DNA from: an uncultured Spirochaetales bacterium
GTDB taxonomy: Bacteria > UBP6 > UBA1177
Reading direction: 5' to 3'
Assembly: GCA_902774115.1 (NCBI GenBank)
Contig: CACYHH010000001.1
Location: forward strand, 310,001 to 374,000
Length of the DNA stretch: 64,000 bases
Notes under the pieces: generated by a model
What the model saw: the letters and a program-made list of their open reading frames with translations, nothing else
Databases searched by the model: none
Told to the model about the DNA's origin: nothing
Made by a program: the position numbers and the translations under genes
Part shown: positions 9,361-49,868 of the stretch, in pieces
Numbering within the stretch: position 1 is the stretch's first letter
Layout: the number at the start of each line of letters is the position of its first letter

Positions 9361-10768
9361 GAATTTGATCTCGCTCCTCTTTGTTCTGGATTCGTCTCCT
9401 CAAAGCGGTGCGTCTCTCGCATTTTTCAACAGTTTTATCGAGCAGCTCATAGACTGTATGGCTGAAAAAGCGGCTCTGACGGTTTTTTATCCCGAATTTT
9501 CGGATAAGGAAGAGCATTTTTCTTTGAGTATAACGCAAATGCCGAAGTACCGCCGCATGGTGACATACATTCCGACACGTCTCGAATCTTTCAGCGAGAC
9601 TTATCTCAACGAAAAAATGGACGGCGTTTTCAGTTTCATTCTGAAGGATGACCACTTCGATGCGATCCACATCTGGAGTCTCAAAAACCACTCTTTCAAC
9701 TATCCGGCAATCGCGAAAGAACGCGGGATTCCAGTTGTTTACACTTTCTGCGACGGATTCCTTTTCTCAAATTCGATCTTTGAAAAAGGGCTCGGAGAAA
9801 ACGGCGGAACGGTGAGAGTTTCAAATTTCGTGAACTCTTCCATAACTTCGTTTGTGCGAAGGTTGGTAAGTGCCGTCAAGCCGAAACCGCGTTCATACTG
9901 GTTTGAAAATATCGGCAGATACAGCCGTTACTACAACCGCACGTCCGAAAGCGGGATCGAACCTGACGTTTTTGAGGAACGTGCCGAGTTGTCTGATGAA
10001 GTTGTGTCGTTCTGCGATAAGTTCATCTTCTTTTCGGAGCTTGAATACAACCTCTTCTATCGTCCGCTGATTCCCGAAAGCAAAGCCGCTTTCATGGAGC
10101 AGGGGATTTTGCACGAACTCGATTTCTGGAACCGTCCTTTCGAGATCGAAGGTGCGGTGAAATTCTGTTTTATGGGCGAAATCCTGCCTGAAGAGGGTGT
10201 TTTTGAACTTGTCGAGGCGTTCAACATCCTTTACAGCGAAGGATTCCGCAACGAACTGCATGTCTACGGCGAAACGCACGAAAATTCACCGTATTTCAGC
10301 AGGCTCAAACAGCGCGTCAAAAACCCCGACATTTTTTTCCACGGCTCTATACAGGGCGGAAGAATAAATGCAGCGCTGAATACCGCTGATGTACTTATTG
10401 TTCCTGCCAAATGGACCAGAAACGACACTTTTTTAGTGAATAACGCGATTTTAGAAAGGAAGGCACTCATTGTTTCAGGAAAGAATGCGCTGGCCGAAAA
10501 AGTGAGAAAGTCGGGCAGGGGGCTTATTCTTGATGAAGTGACGCCGCACGCTATTGCAGACGCTGTTTCGGAACTTGAGCGCAACAGGAAAAGGCTCTAC
10601 TATTTCATGCGTGTCACCGACGATTTCAGAGTACCCGATATAAACGAAAACTGCGAGTTTCTGACTTCGCTTTACGGCGAACTTGCCAAAAATTACAAAG
10701 AGGTCGATCCGCTTTTGCTTGCAAGAAAACTTAACAGAAGAAGAAAAGAGAGGCAACAACGTGGATAA
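9350..10768 (+). CDS. GT4-type glycosyltransferase
   Basis: 472 residues from a GTG at 9350 that overlaps the end of leuC by 11 bases and has AAGGGGAG just upstream. The N-terminal half (LLFVLDSSPQSGASLAFFNSF... HIWSLKN) looks like the acceptor-binding Rossmann domain. The C-terminal half matches the GT-B nucleotide-sugar domain: KFCFMGEILPEEGVFELVEAF, then FFHGSIQGGRINAALNTADV and LIVPAKWTRNDTFLVNNAIL, which corresponds to the E-x7-E region. It probably transfers a sugar from a nucleotide donor to an envelope or secondary metabolite acceptor; substrate unknown. It sits inside the leuC-leuD operon with overlapping starts on both sides, so it is likely translationally coupled. Confidence 0.8.
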   Translation: MDSENLISLLFVLDSSPQSGASLAFFNSFIEQLIDCMAEKAALTVFYPEFSDKEEHFSLSITQMPKYRRMVTYIPTRLESFSETYLNEKMDGVFSFILKDDHFDAIHIWSLKNHSFNYPAIAKERGIPVVYTFCDGFLFSNSIFEKGLGENGGTVRVSNFVNSSITSFVRRLVSAVKPKPRSYWFENIGRYSRYYNRTSESGIEPDVFEERAELSDEVVSFCDKFIFFSELEYNLFYRPLIPESKAAFMEQGILHELDFWNRPFEIEGAVKFCFMGEILPEEGVFELVEAFNILYSEGFRNELHVYGETHENSPYFSRLKQRVKNPDIFFHGSIQGGRINAALNTADVLIVPAKWTRNDTFLVNNAILERKALIVSGKNALAEKVRKSGRGLILDEVTPHAIADAVSELERNRKRLYYFMRVTDDFRVPDINENCEFLTSLYGELAKNYKEVDPLLLARKLNRRRKERQQRG

Positions 10769-11633
10769 ATTGAAAAACAGTGCTGCTCCTACGCCGGCTT
10801 TGGTCGTAAAACTTATACTCGTGCTCGTTTTTCTGCTCACGGCAGCTTTTGTGAGCGGGGTAGTGATAGGTAAAAACGGCAGACGGAATGTCGACAGAAC
10901 GAGTTCCGACGAAGAGGGGATAAACGAAAAACTCTCAAACTGCATTTTTAATTCGGACGAGCTTCGTGAAAAATATCTGAAACTCAGGGATGCAGCCCGT
11001 GAAAAAGGACTCCTGGACGAAAATGACGTTGTCAACGCGAAGGTGATTTGTAAACCGGAAACGAAGCCCGCGGAAAAATCCGTTGAACCGGAACCTGCGG
11101 AAAAACCAGCCGAAAAAAACGTAGAGACGTTACCTGAAACGTCTCCGAAAGAATCATCAAAAACGGAAAAACCAGCTGAAAAAACGGCTGAAAAACCTGT
11201 AGAGAAATCCCCTGAGACGTCTCCGAAAAACCAGGAACCAGTTGAATCAAAATCCGAAAAAACTGTCGAAAAAATTGTTGAAAAACCAAAACCTGAGGAA
11301 AAACCTGATAAAAACAAGACGATCGATGAAATCCTGACAGAGAAAAAGGCAGAACAGAAACCTGTAGAGACGTTACCTGAAACGTCTCCAAAAAAAGATA
11401 GCGCAAAAAAATGTCTCTTTGCCATTCAGCTCGCGTTTTTGGACAGCATTGAACAGGTAAACGCATCGAAGAAAGAGTTCAAATCTTTGAAACTGAGGGT
11501 AATTGACGGCGAAAACAACGGCAAAAAGTGGTATAAAATCAGAACCGGCTGCTTTGATTCGCGTGAAGCTGCCGCTGCCGAGCTTACAAAAGTAAAAAGT
11601 GTTAAAAAAGATGCATTCATAGTCTCGGAATAA
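10761..11633 (+). CDS. SPOR-domain inner-membrane protein with Pro/Glu/Lys repeat linker
   Basis: 291 residues. The GTG at 10761 is preceded by AGAGAGG and overlaps the glycosyltransferase stop by eight bases. A single hydrophobic segment (VKLILVLVFLLTAAFVSGVVIG, residues ~14-36) anchors it in the inner membrane. A linker of ~150 residues rich in EKPAEK, VETLPETSPK and VEKSPETSPK follows. The C-terminal ~75 residues match a SPOR domain (FAIQLAFLDSIEQVNASKKEF...WYKIRTGCFDSREAAAAELTKVKS), which binds denuded peptidoglycan glycans at division sites in other proteins. Three copies of the palindromic element lie in the linker. Location within the leuC-leuD operon is unexpected; a role at the cell wall is inferred from SPOR. 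Confidence 0.85.
   Translation: MDKLKNSAAPTPALVVKLILVLVFLLTAAFVSGVVIGKNGRRNVDRTSSDEEGINEKLSNCIFNSDELREKYLKLRDAAREKGLLDENDVVNAKVICKPETKPAEKSVEPEPAEKPAEKNVETLPETSPKESSKTEKPAEKTAEKPVEKSPETSPKNQEPVESKSEKTVEKIVEKPKPEEKPDKNKTIDEILTEKKAEQKPVETLPETSPKKDSAKKCLFAIQLAFLDSIEQVNASKKEFKSLKLRVIDGENNGKKWYKIRTGCFDSREAAAAELTKVKSVKKDAFIVSE
11121..11146 (+). repeat. Palindromic coding element, copy 1 (in-frame VETLPETSP)
   Basis: 26-base unit with arms GAGACGTT and AACGTCTC around ACCTGA, inside the SPOR-protein linker. Identical to the copy at 11364-11389. Confidence 0.85.
11199..11224 (+). repeat. Palindromic coding element, diverged copy 2 (VEKSPETSP)
   Basis: Same position pattern and reading frame as copy 1, but the left arm is degraded (GAGAAATC) while the right half (CCTGAGACGTCTCC) is kept. 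Confidence 0.7.
11364..11389 (+). repeat. Palindromic coding element, copy 3 (in-frame VETLPETSP)
   Basis: Exact repeat of the 26 bases at 11121-11146, again in the frame that reads VETLPETSP. Confidence 0.85.
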
Positions 11634-12260: not shown

Positions 12261-12288
12261 GTGAGACGTTTCAGGAAACGTCTCTACA
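12261..12288 (-). repeat. Palindromic element copy 4, supplying a stop codon
   Basis: Read on the minus strand, GTAGAGACGTTTCCTGAAAC continues into GTCTCAC, matching the copies at 11121 and 11364 with one change near the centre. The TAG inside its first four bases (12286-12284) is the stop codon of the minus-strand lipoprotein gene. Confidence 0.8.
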
Positions 12289-46508: not shown

Positions 46509-49500
46509 TTAATTTATCCCCTTTTTTGTCAGCTTTTCATACATCTTGAAAAGCTCGGCAACAATTTCAGCTTCACTCATTTTCGAATTAAAACCGTAAG
46601 CCGCCATAACAGCCTTGTCGTTTTCTTTGTGAGCTTTTCTGAGGTCAGGCGGCATCGTGGTTTCATCGTAAAGGTCGGCAAGAGACGAGTCCGGATATTT
46701 CGCTCTTGCATCAAGAATCGCCTGCGCTGTCTGTTCGACCTTGTCCCGTAGAGACGTGACCTGACACGTCTCTTTTGCGTTTGCCACGGTTTTTCTTTTG
46801 TGAGACGTCTCAGGTGACGTCTCTACATCCGGCCACGGGAAATTGTTGTAAATAAACGGTGAATAATTGTAATCGCTCTTTAATCTACCGCAGACGACAC
46901 GCATCCATGCATTGTGAACATTGGATGACATAACACCGAAAAGATAGAGTGTTGCATTTGAAATGTAACTAACACGATCGCTCAAAATAATATCAGGTTT
47001 AATAAATCCGATCGGAATATATTTTCTGTTTTCTGATGAAACTCTCGGTATTGCCAGATAATCCGTCTCAGGTTGACGAATCTGTGTGAAAAGCATCGGT
47101 GTTTCTGAATCACGCTGAACCGAAGCAGTAGGACTCTTCCGTCTGAACTCAGAGACTCTTTCAAGACGCGCAATGACCGGCGGAATTTTTCTGTATTCGT
47201 CCGGTGCGACATTTTTCAGCCAGAGACACCACCGTTTTTTGTTGTTTATAAACTCCTCTGCCCCCATAAACTGCCGGATAAATTTCGCGCTTTCTGGATA
47301 CTTTCGGATCAGTTCATCTTTTTCATCAGTTGAAAGAATCAGATTTCCACCGTCTGTCGGCTGACTTCCTTTGCTCATTTTCGGTAATGTCGGATTTAAA
47401 TTCTGATTTCTGTTCTGAATAAAAACATTCGGTGCGTCAAGCAAGTATCCGTTGATATTTTTTGCTTCGATAACTGTTCCGTCAGCATTGAAAATTTGTC
47501 GGTGTGCAATCGGCTCGACTGCATTCTTTTCTGCACGCGAGCCGCGTGCATGCCGACAAGAAAATCCAACAATCACGCAGTGAACATGGGCTTTCTGCGT
47601 TGATTCGCTGTCCCAGCGGAATGTCCTCCACGCAAAATCTATATTCAGAGCATCGTCAAACAAAGGTTTCCACAAAGTTGCAACACTTTCGCCCTGACAT
47701 ATTGAGTTTGTTGAAACAAATGCACATTTTACATTAGTGCCGCGAATAATATCCAATGCTTTTTTATACCAGCAGCATACATAATCAAGCTTACCGTGGT
47801 TGTTTCCGAAGTCTTTGAAAACCGTGTCCATGTCGCTCTGCTGTTCCTTGCTTCGCCACTGATGTCCTACAAACGGCGGATTTCCCATGATGTAGTCGTA
47901 ATGGTTTTCCGTCTTTTTCTGCCGCGGTTTTCCGACATTTATTTCGTCTGTGATAAGATTGATTTCGTCATATTTGCTATCGGATCCTTTCACCGGGTAA
48001 TATCTGCCAGGGTGGTATTCCACTTCAGGTTCCCTGATCATAAAAGGATAAATGAGATTAGTCTTTTTCGCGGTTATCGTGGGAATTTTTTCCTCTTCTT
48101 CGCACAAATATCTCCAGTCCATCCTAAGGGCATTGCCCTCAACAATTGTCGCGCTTGTCGAAAGCGGCAGAAAATCGAGGTCTTCTTCAACAATTTCCTC
48201 AGTTTCTTTCATCATCTGCGATTCAGCGATCCAAAGTGCCGTTTTTGCGACAGTGACAGCAAAATCGTTGATTTCAATGCCGTAAAACTGCGAGATTTTT
48301 ACTTTTATAGGTGAAAAATCACTCCCTAAAAGCTGCTGGTTTCCGTGAATCTTTTTAAGGATTTCGTTTTCCAAGCGGCGCAGTGAAATATAGGTTTCTG
48401 TCAGGAAATTTCCGCTTCCGCAGGCAGGATCGAGAAATTTTAAATCTGCGATTTTATTGCGTAACTGCTCTAAACGGGAACGCTGTTTGGCCGTCAATCT
48501 TAACTCCTCTCCTAAGTTAGGGGAGGTGCCGCTTGCGGCGGTGGAGTGTGTTGCCTTTTTGTTTTGACACACGCCCCAGTCGCTTCGCGACAGCCCCTCT
48601 AGCTTAGAGGGGCATTTTTTGCCCGTAATTTCATAAAATTCCTTCCATAAACCATTCAGAAACAGCGGATCAATCACTTTGTGAATATTTGTGATCGAGG
48701 TGTAGTGCATTCCGCCTTGGTGCCGTGTTTCGGGGTTTAAAGTCGATTCAAAAACTGCTCCAAAAATCGTGGGAGAAATTTTAGACCAGTCAAAACCGGC
48801 ACTTGCTTTGTTCACAAGAATGTCGACAATCTCTTCATTAAATCTGGGTATTTCGATTTCACGCTCGGCAAAAAGTCCGCCGTTGACATACGGAAACGCT
48901 GCCAAATCATCATTCAAATACGGATCCCGATCTTCAGGTTTTGTGTTCAGAATTGCGAACAAATTCAATATCTTTTCGCGAGCTTCCTCAGGTCTGAATT
49001 TTGCAAGATAACGCCCGAACATATCTTTTTCAGGGAAGATTCCCGCATCTTCGGCATAAAGCAGAAAAACAAGTCTGACACAGAGGATATTCAGAGATTT
49101 GAGAGTTTCTGCTCTTTCTTGATTTTTATACTGCTTAAGAATCGCATCATAAAGCTTCCCGACAAGTTCTCCGGCCTTCAGAGAAATCTGCGTTTCCGGC
49201 GGAATCAAATCTTTTTCTGAATCGACCAGAAAATGTAAACTCTCAAAATCATTTGATAAATTTTCGAGCAAAACAGTACCAAAATGCTTTTCCGGTTCTT
49301 CTTTTTCCATGTCGTAAATGCGGAACTCGGCAAAATTCGACACCACAATCCAGCGGCAGCGTTCCGAGTAGCGCAGATTGTCGTTGTAGCGTTTTGCCTG
49401 CTCGTAAGGCGTGAGCAGACTACCGTCGCTCTGGAGAGCTTTTTTGTCGAGGTCGATTCCCAGGCTTTTCTGCTCGATAGCGGTATTTGTCGCCGCAATG

Positions 49501-49700
49501 TAGGCATCGATATATTTAATTCCGTTGATTTTGACCCTTTTTTCAAAGTCAATGACGGTTTCTGGCTTTTCGATTCCGAAAACATTCCGCAGAAGTGAGG
49601 TCCAGAAAAGCTCCTTGTCCTGTTTTTCGTCCCCTTTACCTTGCCAGAAATCAGCGAATTCCTTAGCCGCTTTTTTGCGATTTATTGCAGTTCTTGCCAT
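46509..49700 (-). CDS. MmeI-like restriction-modification enzyme with three in-frame palindromic insertions
   Basis: 1063 residues. N-terminal MmeI-type nuclease region (FADFWQGKGDEKQDKELFWTSLLRNVFG; E-x-K in NTAIEQKSLG near 73), helical spacer, SAM motif FLDPACGSGNFLTE (~423), target-adenine motif GNPPFVGHQ (~607) and a target-recognition C-terminus ending DLYDETTMPPDLRKAH. This group methylates adenine and cuts with one polypeptide. Three segments look foreign to the family: ~37 residues before DPACGSG (CPSKLEGLSRSDWGV...), ~21 residues around CRHARGSRAEKN, and ~26 residues (VETSPETSHK...KETCQVTS) after NNFPWPD. Each coincides with a palindromic DNA element and keeps the frame open. Insertions lie at linker positions, so activity may survive. 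Confidence 0.9.
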   Translation of the reverse strand: MARTAINRKKAAKEFADFWQGKGDEKQDKELFWTSLLRNVFGIEKPETVIDFEKRVKINGIKYIDAYIAATNTAIEQKSLGIDLDKKALQSDGSLLTPYEQAKRYNDNLRYSERCRWIVVSNFAEFRIYDMEKEEPEKHFGTVLLENLSNDFESLHFLVDSEKDLIPPETQISLKAGELVGKLYDAILKQYKNQERAETLKSLNILCVRLVFLLYAEDAGIFPEKDMFGRYLAKFRPEEAREKILNLFAILNTKPEDRDPYLNDDLAAFPYVNGGLFAEREIEIPRFNEEIVDILVNKASAGFDWSKISPTIFGAVFESTLNPETRHQGGMHYTSITNIHKVIDPLFLNGLWKEFYEITGKKCPSKLEGLSRSDWGVCQNKKATHSTAASGTSPNLGEELRLTAKQRSRLEQLRNKIADLKFLDPACGSGNFLTETYISLRRLENEILKKIHGNQQLLGSDFSPIKVKISQFYGIEINDFAVTVAKTALWIAESQMMKETEEIVEEDLDFLPLSTSATIVEGNALRMDWRYLCEEEEKIPTITAKKTNLIYPFMIREPEVEYHPGRYYPVKGSDSKYDEINLITDEINVGKPRQKKTENHYDYIMGNPPFVGHQWRSKEQQSDMDTVFKDFGNNHGKLDYVCCWYKKALDIIRGTNVKCAFVSTNSICQGESVATLWKPLFDDALNIDFAWRTFRWDSESTQKAHVHCVIVGFSCRHARGSRAEKNAVEPIAHRQIFNADGTVIEAKNINGYLLDAPNVFIQNRNQNLNPTLPKMSKGSQPTDGGNLILSTDEKDELIRKYPESAKFIRQFMGAEEFINNKKRWCLWLKNVAPDEYRKIPPVIARLERVSEFRRKSPTASVQRDSETPMLFTQIRQPETDYLAIPRVSSENRKYIPIGFIKPDIILSDRVSYISNATLYLFGVMSSNVHNAWMRVVCGRLKSDYNYSPFIYNNFPWPDVETSPETSHKRKTVANAKETCQVTSLRDKVEQTAQAILDARAKYPDSSLADLYDETTMPPDLRKAHKENDKAVMAAYGFNSKMSEAEIVAELFKMYEKLTKKGIN
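46748..46772 (-). repeat. Palindromic coding element, copy 5 (reads KETCQVTS)
   Basis: GTAGAGACGTGACCTGACAC and CGTCTC on the plus strand, arms GAGACGTG/CACGTCTC. It lies inside the MmeI-like gene, opposite in orientation to copy 6. Confidence 0.8.
46800..46826 (-). repeat. Palindromic coding element, copy 6 (reads VETSPETSHK)
   Basis: On the minus strand GTAGAGACGT, CACCTG and AGACGTCTCAC encode VETSPETSH, matching the linker peptides of the SPOR protein 35 kb away. Together with copy 5 it forms an inverted pair with a 27-base spacer. Confidence 0.8.
47496..47559. repeat. Palindromic element inside the MmeI-like gene (family E)
   Basis: Arms of 22 bases (47496-47517 and 47538-47559) match as TTGTCGGnnTGCAnnCGGCTCG and its complement, with a 20-base loop. 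Encodes the CRHARGSRAEKNAVEPIAH segment. Confidence 0.8.
48506..48613. repeat. Four-hairpin repeat inside the MmeI-like gene (family D)
   Basis: Hairpins CCTCTCCTAA/TTAGGGGAGG (48506-48526), GCCGC/GCGGC (48528-48539), GTCGC/GCGAC (48579-48591) and GCCCCTCTA/TAGAGGGGC (48593-48613). Total span 108 bases, exactly 36 codons. This type of CTCCCCTAACTTAG-like repeat is widespread between genes in many bacteria. Confidence 0.85.
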
Positions 49701-49868
49701 ATTTCACTCCGCTAATCACGATTAAAGCGTTTGGTTGTATCACATAAACAAACAGAAAACAAGTTTTAGATTCTTTGCCGAAAAATTATTCTTCATCTTC
49801 TCAAATTTATGTTTAAAAATAGGCGGGGATTTTTTGTTAAGTCTTTGATAAATTTGGTGAAATCGTGC

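Follow-up and report, generated by a model that had tools for sequence, protein, structure and literature searches.

REPs normally occur mostly outside genes, and the Rickettsia palindromic elements (RPEs) are palindromic repeats that lie in frame within protein-coding genes. The known systems closest to the one reported here include the GTAG REPs, for which intragenic in-frame dimers coding for 20–30 aa and two inserts in one uvrA have been described (Di Nocera et al, 2013, PMC3733652), and the REPINs or BIMEs with their RAYT transposases (PMC3116915, PMC2817692). Shuffling of target recognition domains (TRDs) has been reported for restriction-modification (R-M) systems in the specificity subunits of type I enzymes (PMC3077401).

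The gene analysed here is an MmeI-family R-M gene with three unrelated palindromic elements, named A, B and C, and lies in a 64-kb stretch of DNA that is referred to as the window. Element A resembles the GTAG/CGTC REPs and REPINs, as it is formed by inverted tagged hairpins, is multicopy and has copies flanking a RAYT-like gene. Unlike in usual REPs, about half of its exact-stem copies in this genome are in frame, and unlike in the known intragenic REPs, three families are present in one gene and the same joints recur in paralogues and in another phylum. The RPEs are also in-frame palindromic inserts, but the likeness is one of mode only, and the organism is unrelated. TRDs are exchanged between otherwise near-identical genes as in type I specificity-subunit shuffling, whereas the family here is a single-chain type IIL one and its recombination was deduced from sequence. 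In-frame REP insertion is therefore of a known kind and is unusual in degree and address; what is new is that insertions recur at the same three joints within an R-M family that shuffles specificity, and a literature search listed no title on palindromic repeats in R-M recognition domains. Several palindromic families at the same three joints of one protein family in two phyla show, as a map drawn by natural insertions, where a type IIL enzyme tolerates inserts, which marks where the modules are separable or the linkers extendable. In addition, the alleles with and without elements allow testing whether REPs only hitch-hike or aid TRD exchange.

The window gene and its three palindromic elements

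The MmeI_N, hel, Mtase, TRD and C domains of Pfam were found in order on the single chain of the window protein, PADLOC placed it in type IIG, and the nearest solved structure, MmeI (5HR4), is homologous over the whole length with the same domain order but without all three inserts and the long variable segment 536–598. These features confirmed the MmeI-family identity proposed for this gene in an earlier note. The nuclease motif PD-(D/E)xK (D65..E75-x-K77) and the gamma-class N6A methyltransferase motifs DPACGSGNF (424) and NPPF (607) are present and intact. A pseudogene was ruled out by the intact frame and motifs, and the enzyme is presumably active. The conserved region upstream of the gene (Table 1) is probably a promoter or leader that travels with the MmeI gene.

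The coordinates and lengths given earlier for the three elements were correct, and all of them are read through in frame. Element A is made of two inverted GTAG-tagged REPs, each with its own hairpin, and its 25-nt arms (92% complementary) form the top inverted repeat of the window. Element B consists of two hairpin units in inverted orientation, with the core TGCACGCG-GCT-CGCGTGCA, and by our reading its 22-nt arms agree in 18 positions. Element C contains four stem-loops at about 48505–48526, 48528–48539, 48579–48591 and 48593–48613. The length is a multiple of three in element C only and not in A (79 nt) or B (64 nt). When compared with the commonest empty linkers of the genus, the net gain was 39, 12 and 21 aa at sites 1, 2 and 3, respectively. 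Because these gains are unequal to the element lengths, which counts against simple insertion, the events appear to be insertions combined with deletion or replacement of linker sequence.

Strict hairpins (arm score ≥ 8) occur inside ORFs at 0.17 per kb in 464 kb of the own genome, and the window gene exceeds this chance level with five in 3.19 kb (1.6 per kb), one of which is an ordinary conserved C-terminal hairpin. The fold z-scores of the three linkers were −4.6, −5.5 and −6.3 against mononucleotide shuffles. An assembly artefact was ruled out because the elements recur in independent genomes.

Table 1. Features of the MmeI-family gene, its palindromic elements and another REP-bearing gene of the window.
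Feature	Position	Strand	Details
MmeI-family type IIL/IIG restriction-modification gene, 1063 aa	46509..49700	(-)	Pfam, PADLOC, 5HR4 alignment
Upstream region, ~70 bp	49701..49770	(-)	conserved upstream of most MmeI-like genes in the genus
Element C, site 1 (helical spacer/MTase joint), 108 nt	48506..48613	(-)	36 codons
Methyltransferase domain	47550..48488	(-)	Pfam MmeI_Mtase
Element B, site 2 (MTase/TRD joint), 64 nt	47496..47559	(-)	encodes CRHARGSRAEKNAVEPIAHRQI
Target recognition domain	46827..47438	(-)	between elements A and B; block differing among paralogues
Element A, site 3 (TRD/C-terminal joint), 79 nt	46748..46826	(-)	encodes VETSPETSHKRKTVANAKETCQVTSLR(D)
REP arm 1 of element A	46748..46772	(+)	GTAGAGACGTGACCTGACACGTCTC
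REP arm 2 of element A	46802..46826	(-)	GTAGAGACGTCACCTGAGACGTCTC (gene strand)
SPOR-like gene (C-terminal region, our reading)	10683..11633	(+)	in-frame REPs VETLPETSP at 11124–11145 and 11367–11388

The joints in homologues and their use among relatives

The earlier note had placed each element in a linker and suggested looking for gaps at the repeat borders in other MmeI-family proteins. The linker placement was borne out by the alignment with ~45 relatives of the genus, 62 relatives from other genera and MmeI (5HR4), in which the gaps match the elements, and the homologues without a palindrome are also without the peptide. In the phmmer alignment, MmeI continues straight from 344 where the window protein has 363–406, and the MmeI linkers at the other two sites are short. 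Linkers of the 62 relatives from other genera are likewise short and near-constant, with 20.7 ± 4.7 aa at site 1, 27.4 ± 3.7 aa at site 2 and 17.1 ± 0.6 aa at site 3, and no equivalent peptides encoded by non-repeat DNA were found among them; the few long-linker exceptions read at the DNA level are themselves palindromic. Within the genus (~45 relatives, 15 genomes), the length varies at the same three sites. Placement at a domain border held for site 3, which lies exactly at a border of the MmeI crystal structure, and failed for the other two: site 2 is located ~25–30 residues ahead of the TRD and site 1 precedes methyltransferase motif I within the crystallographic MTase domain. The AlphaFold model of the window protein, which is weak overall (mean pLDDT 65, with other segments low too), gave pLDDT < 50 and mostly coil for the element residues 363–400, 719–733 and 961–978, and this is consistent with the predicted segments being disordered loops.

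When long and short linkers were compared by codon shuffling, the palindrome excess was clear at site 3 (p 1e-4), weak at site 1 (0.04) and not significant at site 2 (0.34). Many of the long linkers thus contain inserts that have decayed or are only weakly palindromic. The segment of aa 536–598 was considered as a fourth palindromic joint and rejected, as its length varies, yet no strict hairpins were found in it among the genus relatives.

Elements have landed repeatedly in the three linkers, where the relatives carry different palindromes or none, and the insertions are not peculiar to the window gene, since both A and B are also present in a paralogue. Among ~45 genes of 15 genomes, the families are not bound to a site. 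In the window gene and in C6, element A occupies site 3; C4, C6, G002, G004 and G007 have it at site 1. Element B is found at site 2 in the window gene, with a copy of ~92–93% identity in the paralogue on G000:C6, and at site 1 in G001 and G012, and related B units are located at site 1 in other genes. A copy of element C (96%) lies at the same site (1) in G012:C53. Half-C units were also seen: one occupies site 2 of G012:C10, and a variant is present at site 3 in many paralogues. Furthermore, element D (CGTCATTCTGAGC...GACG) was observed at site 1, 2 or 3 and element E at site 1 or 2.

At the chromosomal locus of the window gene, between a recX-like gene and an HD-domain gene (names by our reading), an MmeI gene is present in G007:C55, G002:C110 and G004:C63 with other elements than the window gene or none, and G009 has the same junction without an MmeI gene. 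On G009:C1 (L201, 250–5320), the recX-like and HD-domain genes adjoin and an MmeI gene lies slightly further in the opposite orientation. Outside the genus, site 1 holds another palindrome in a Spirochaetaceae homologue (L189), and GTAG-tagged REPs fill sites 1, 2 and 3 in differing combinations in the homologues L191, L192 and L254 from Bacteroidales. The identity of these homologues to the window protein is only ~50%, which makes separate use of the same joints probable.

Several of the records that match genomes of the genus are from ruminant gut. Elements of the rarer kinds were also seen in other genes: another methylase-like R-M gene on G003:C1 (L055, 1–1704, reverse strand) has an in-frame C element near its C-terminus, and a reverse-transcriptase-like gene (L074, G002:C78) has an in-frame B element.

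Origin of the elements and the proposed course of insertion

Element A has the structure of GTAG-tagged REPs, with GTAG on the 5′ side of a short imperfect hairpin and two such units in an inverted pair. Stretches of 27 nt in element A are without mismatch to the REPs beside an ORF of the own genome (G000:C3:184031-184624), which has REPs on both sides and one more within it, in frame. This ORF matches Y1_Tnp, and its best NCBIfam model was REP_Tyr_transpos with an E value of 8.5e-14 and a score below the curated cut-off. There is another RAYT-like gene at C7:44110, which is bordered by a variant REP. The RAYT-like genes were located through the flanking A copies, and a Pfam PF01797 search over the genus did not detect them. 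Element A was probably spread by a RAYT-like transposase encoded elsewhere in the genome, the flanking copies being the ground for this putative assignment. The RAYT-like gene of own C3 with the in-frame REP lies at 1290–2155 of L124, and the RAYT-like genes of G003 and G008 have a multiplied internal repeat (GDVSGH).

The own genome contains 30 exact-stem copies of the A-type REP and none of the reversed control. In a census made by pattern search of the genome together with 400 kb of stretches and the window, about half of the 30 were inside ORFs of ≥ 250 aa, with one consistent frame per orientation and the peptides VETxPETS or ETYQVTSL. The peptide is constant because the forward orientation has a single stop-free frame in the A copy. 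The hosts were MmeI genes (6), FtsY (2), the SPOR-like protein of the window (2) and others. Thus, 6 of 30 exact copies are in a gene family that makes up ~0.7% of the genome, an enrichment inflated by shared descent, conversion and dimers, and a cause beyond tolerance is possible. In FtsY (L126, 1365–2813; own C2:200365-201813), VETSPETSP is repeated in tandem and in frame in the acidic N-terminal linker, and REP-derived repeats are likewise in frame in FtsY of G001, G006 and G010. A further GTAG REP copy is intergenic at 12263–12284 of the window, past the gene that follows the SPOR-like gene.

Elements B and C are dimers that belong to other, rarer palindromic families. They are composed of inverted hairpin units with copies also outside MmeI genes in the genus, and few are present per genome (four matches each in the own genome). 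No GTAG/CGTC tag was seen at the ends of B and C, and no transposase could be linked to either. A DUF559 nuclease was considered as the mobiliser of C and rejected, as C adjoins a DUF559 gene at one locus only.

We consider it most likely that REP-type mobile palindromes landed in three flexible inter-module linkers of an MmeI-family gene and were kept as translated spacer. Element A is of the REPIN/BIME type and was probably mobilised by a RAYT-like transposase from elsewhere in the genome, presumably the one encoded on G000:C3, and B and C are dimers of other palindromic families. Each insertion seems to replace or delete a little linker sequence, and the only survivors would be those whose net change is divisible by three and free of stop codons, because linkers tolerate a disordered loop and domains do not. 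Selection is presumably the only filter on the insertions. The inserted elements would then be carried along whenever an MmeI gene of the genus is copied, moved or recombined, and this recombination includes swapping of the TRD that lies between sites 2 and 3. The earlier note had taken three insertions without a frame break as a sign either of strong functional selection or of some mechanism of tolerance. As stated, this alternative found no support. A special tolerance mechanism is unneeded, given that REPs of the same family are in frame in several other proteins of the genome, that the linkers have low predicted confidence and that some gene copies in the genus are broken. Ordinary purifying selection on random insertions would suffice.

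Exchange of the TRD and the possible role of the elements

Sequence comparison indicated that the MmeI genes of the genus are modular, with TRDs swapped between near-identical flanks. The window gene and the paralogue at C6:43746 share ~40–75% DNA identity in the TRD, ~100% in the flanking element A and ~93% in B. The gene on G004:C25 is ~100% identical in DNA to that of its own C4:335167 through aa 597 and ~50% thereafter, and from aa 598 onward it is ~100% identical to G011:C9. Similarly, G008:C57 and G001:C27 are 95–100% identical near aa 600–740 and ~50% in the TRD, with the breakpoint at aa ~745.

The elements might accordingly be read as short homology patches at the module joints, kept for aiding TRD exchange and specificity switching. 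The TRD is bracketed by sites 2 and 3, the near-identical A and B flank divergent TRDs in the window gene and its C6 paralogue, and the G012 pair L034/L129 reaches 100% identity only around element D at site 2. The clearest breakpoints (aa ~598 and aa ~745), however, are without an element, and identity peaks are expected from conserved gene ends alone. We regard this reading as unlikely, and as the sharpest breakpoints are without an element, the elements are more likely passengers than drivers of exchange. The wider form, in which a RAYT-driven repeat family was co-opted for switching the R-M repertoire through recombination patches at the joints, likewise seems rather improbable.

The other two readings give the insert itself a function. 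The palindromes may be selected for an effect as RNA or DNA within the coding sequence, such as a pause in translation between domains at stem-loops of the mRNA, in line with the strong hairpins in the linkers and with the paired changes by which the stems of A copies differ (GAGCCGTTTCCTGAAACGGCTC vs GAGACGTCACCTGAGACGTCTC). Such paired changes are equally explained by different source REPs, most paralogues are without hairpins at two or three sites, and the same REPs occur in proteins without such domain joints, so that we give this role very little credence. The encoded peptides might instead have been co-opted as functional spacers that set the nuclease-methyltransferase reach or the TRD mobility. 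All catalytic motifs are intact and the inserts stay open while some sibling genes are broken, but close relatives hold very different peptides or none at a given site, and no peptide conservation above that expected from REP DNA was seen, which leaves co-option highly improbable. Insertion of mobile palindromes kept as translated spacer is the reading we prefer over these.

A 6.5-kb contig (L142, G004:C38) contains two convergent MmeI 3′ parts, both cut at aa ~568, and two MmeI 5′ parts lie on other contigs (L143 and L144). The layout could be an assembly break at a repeat, or it could invert to swap TRDs.
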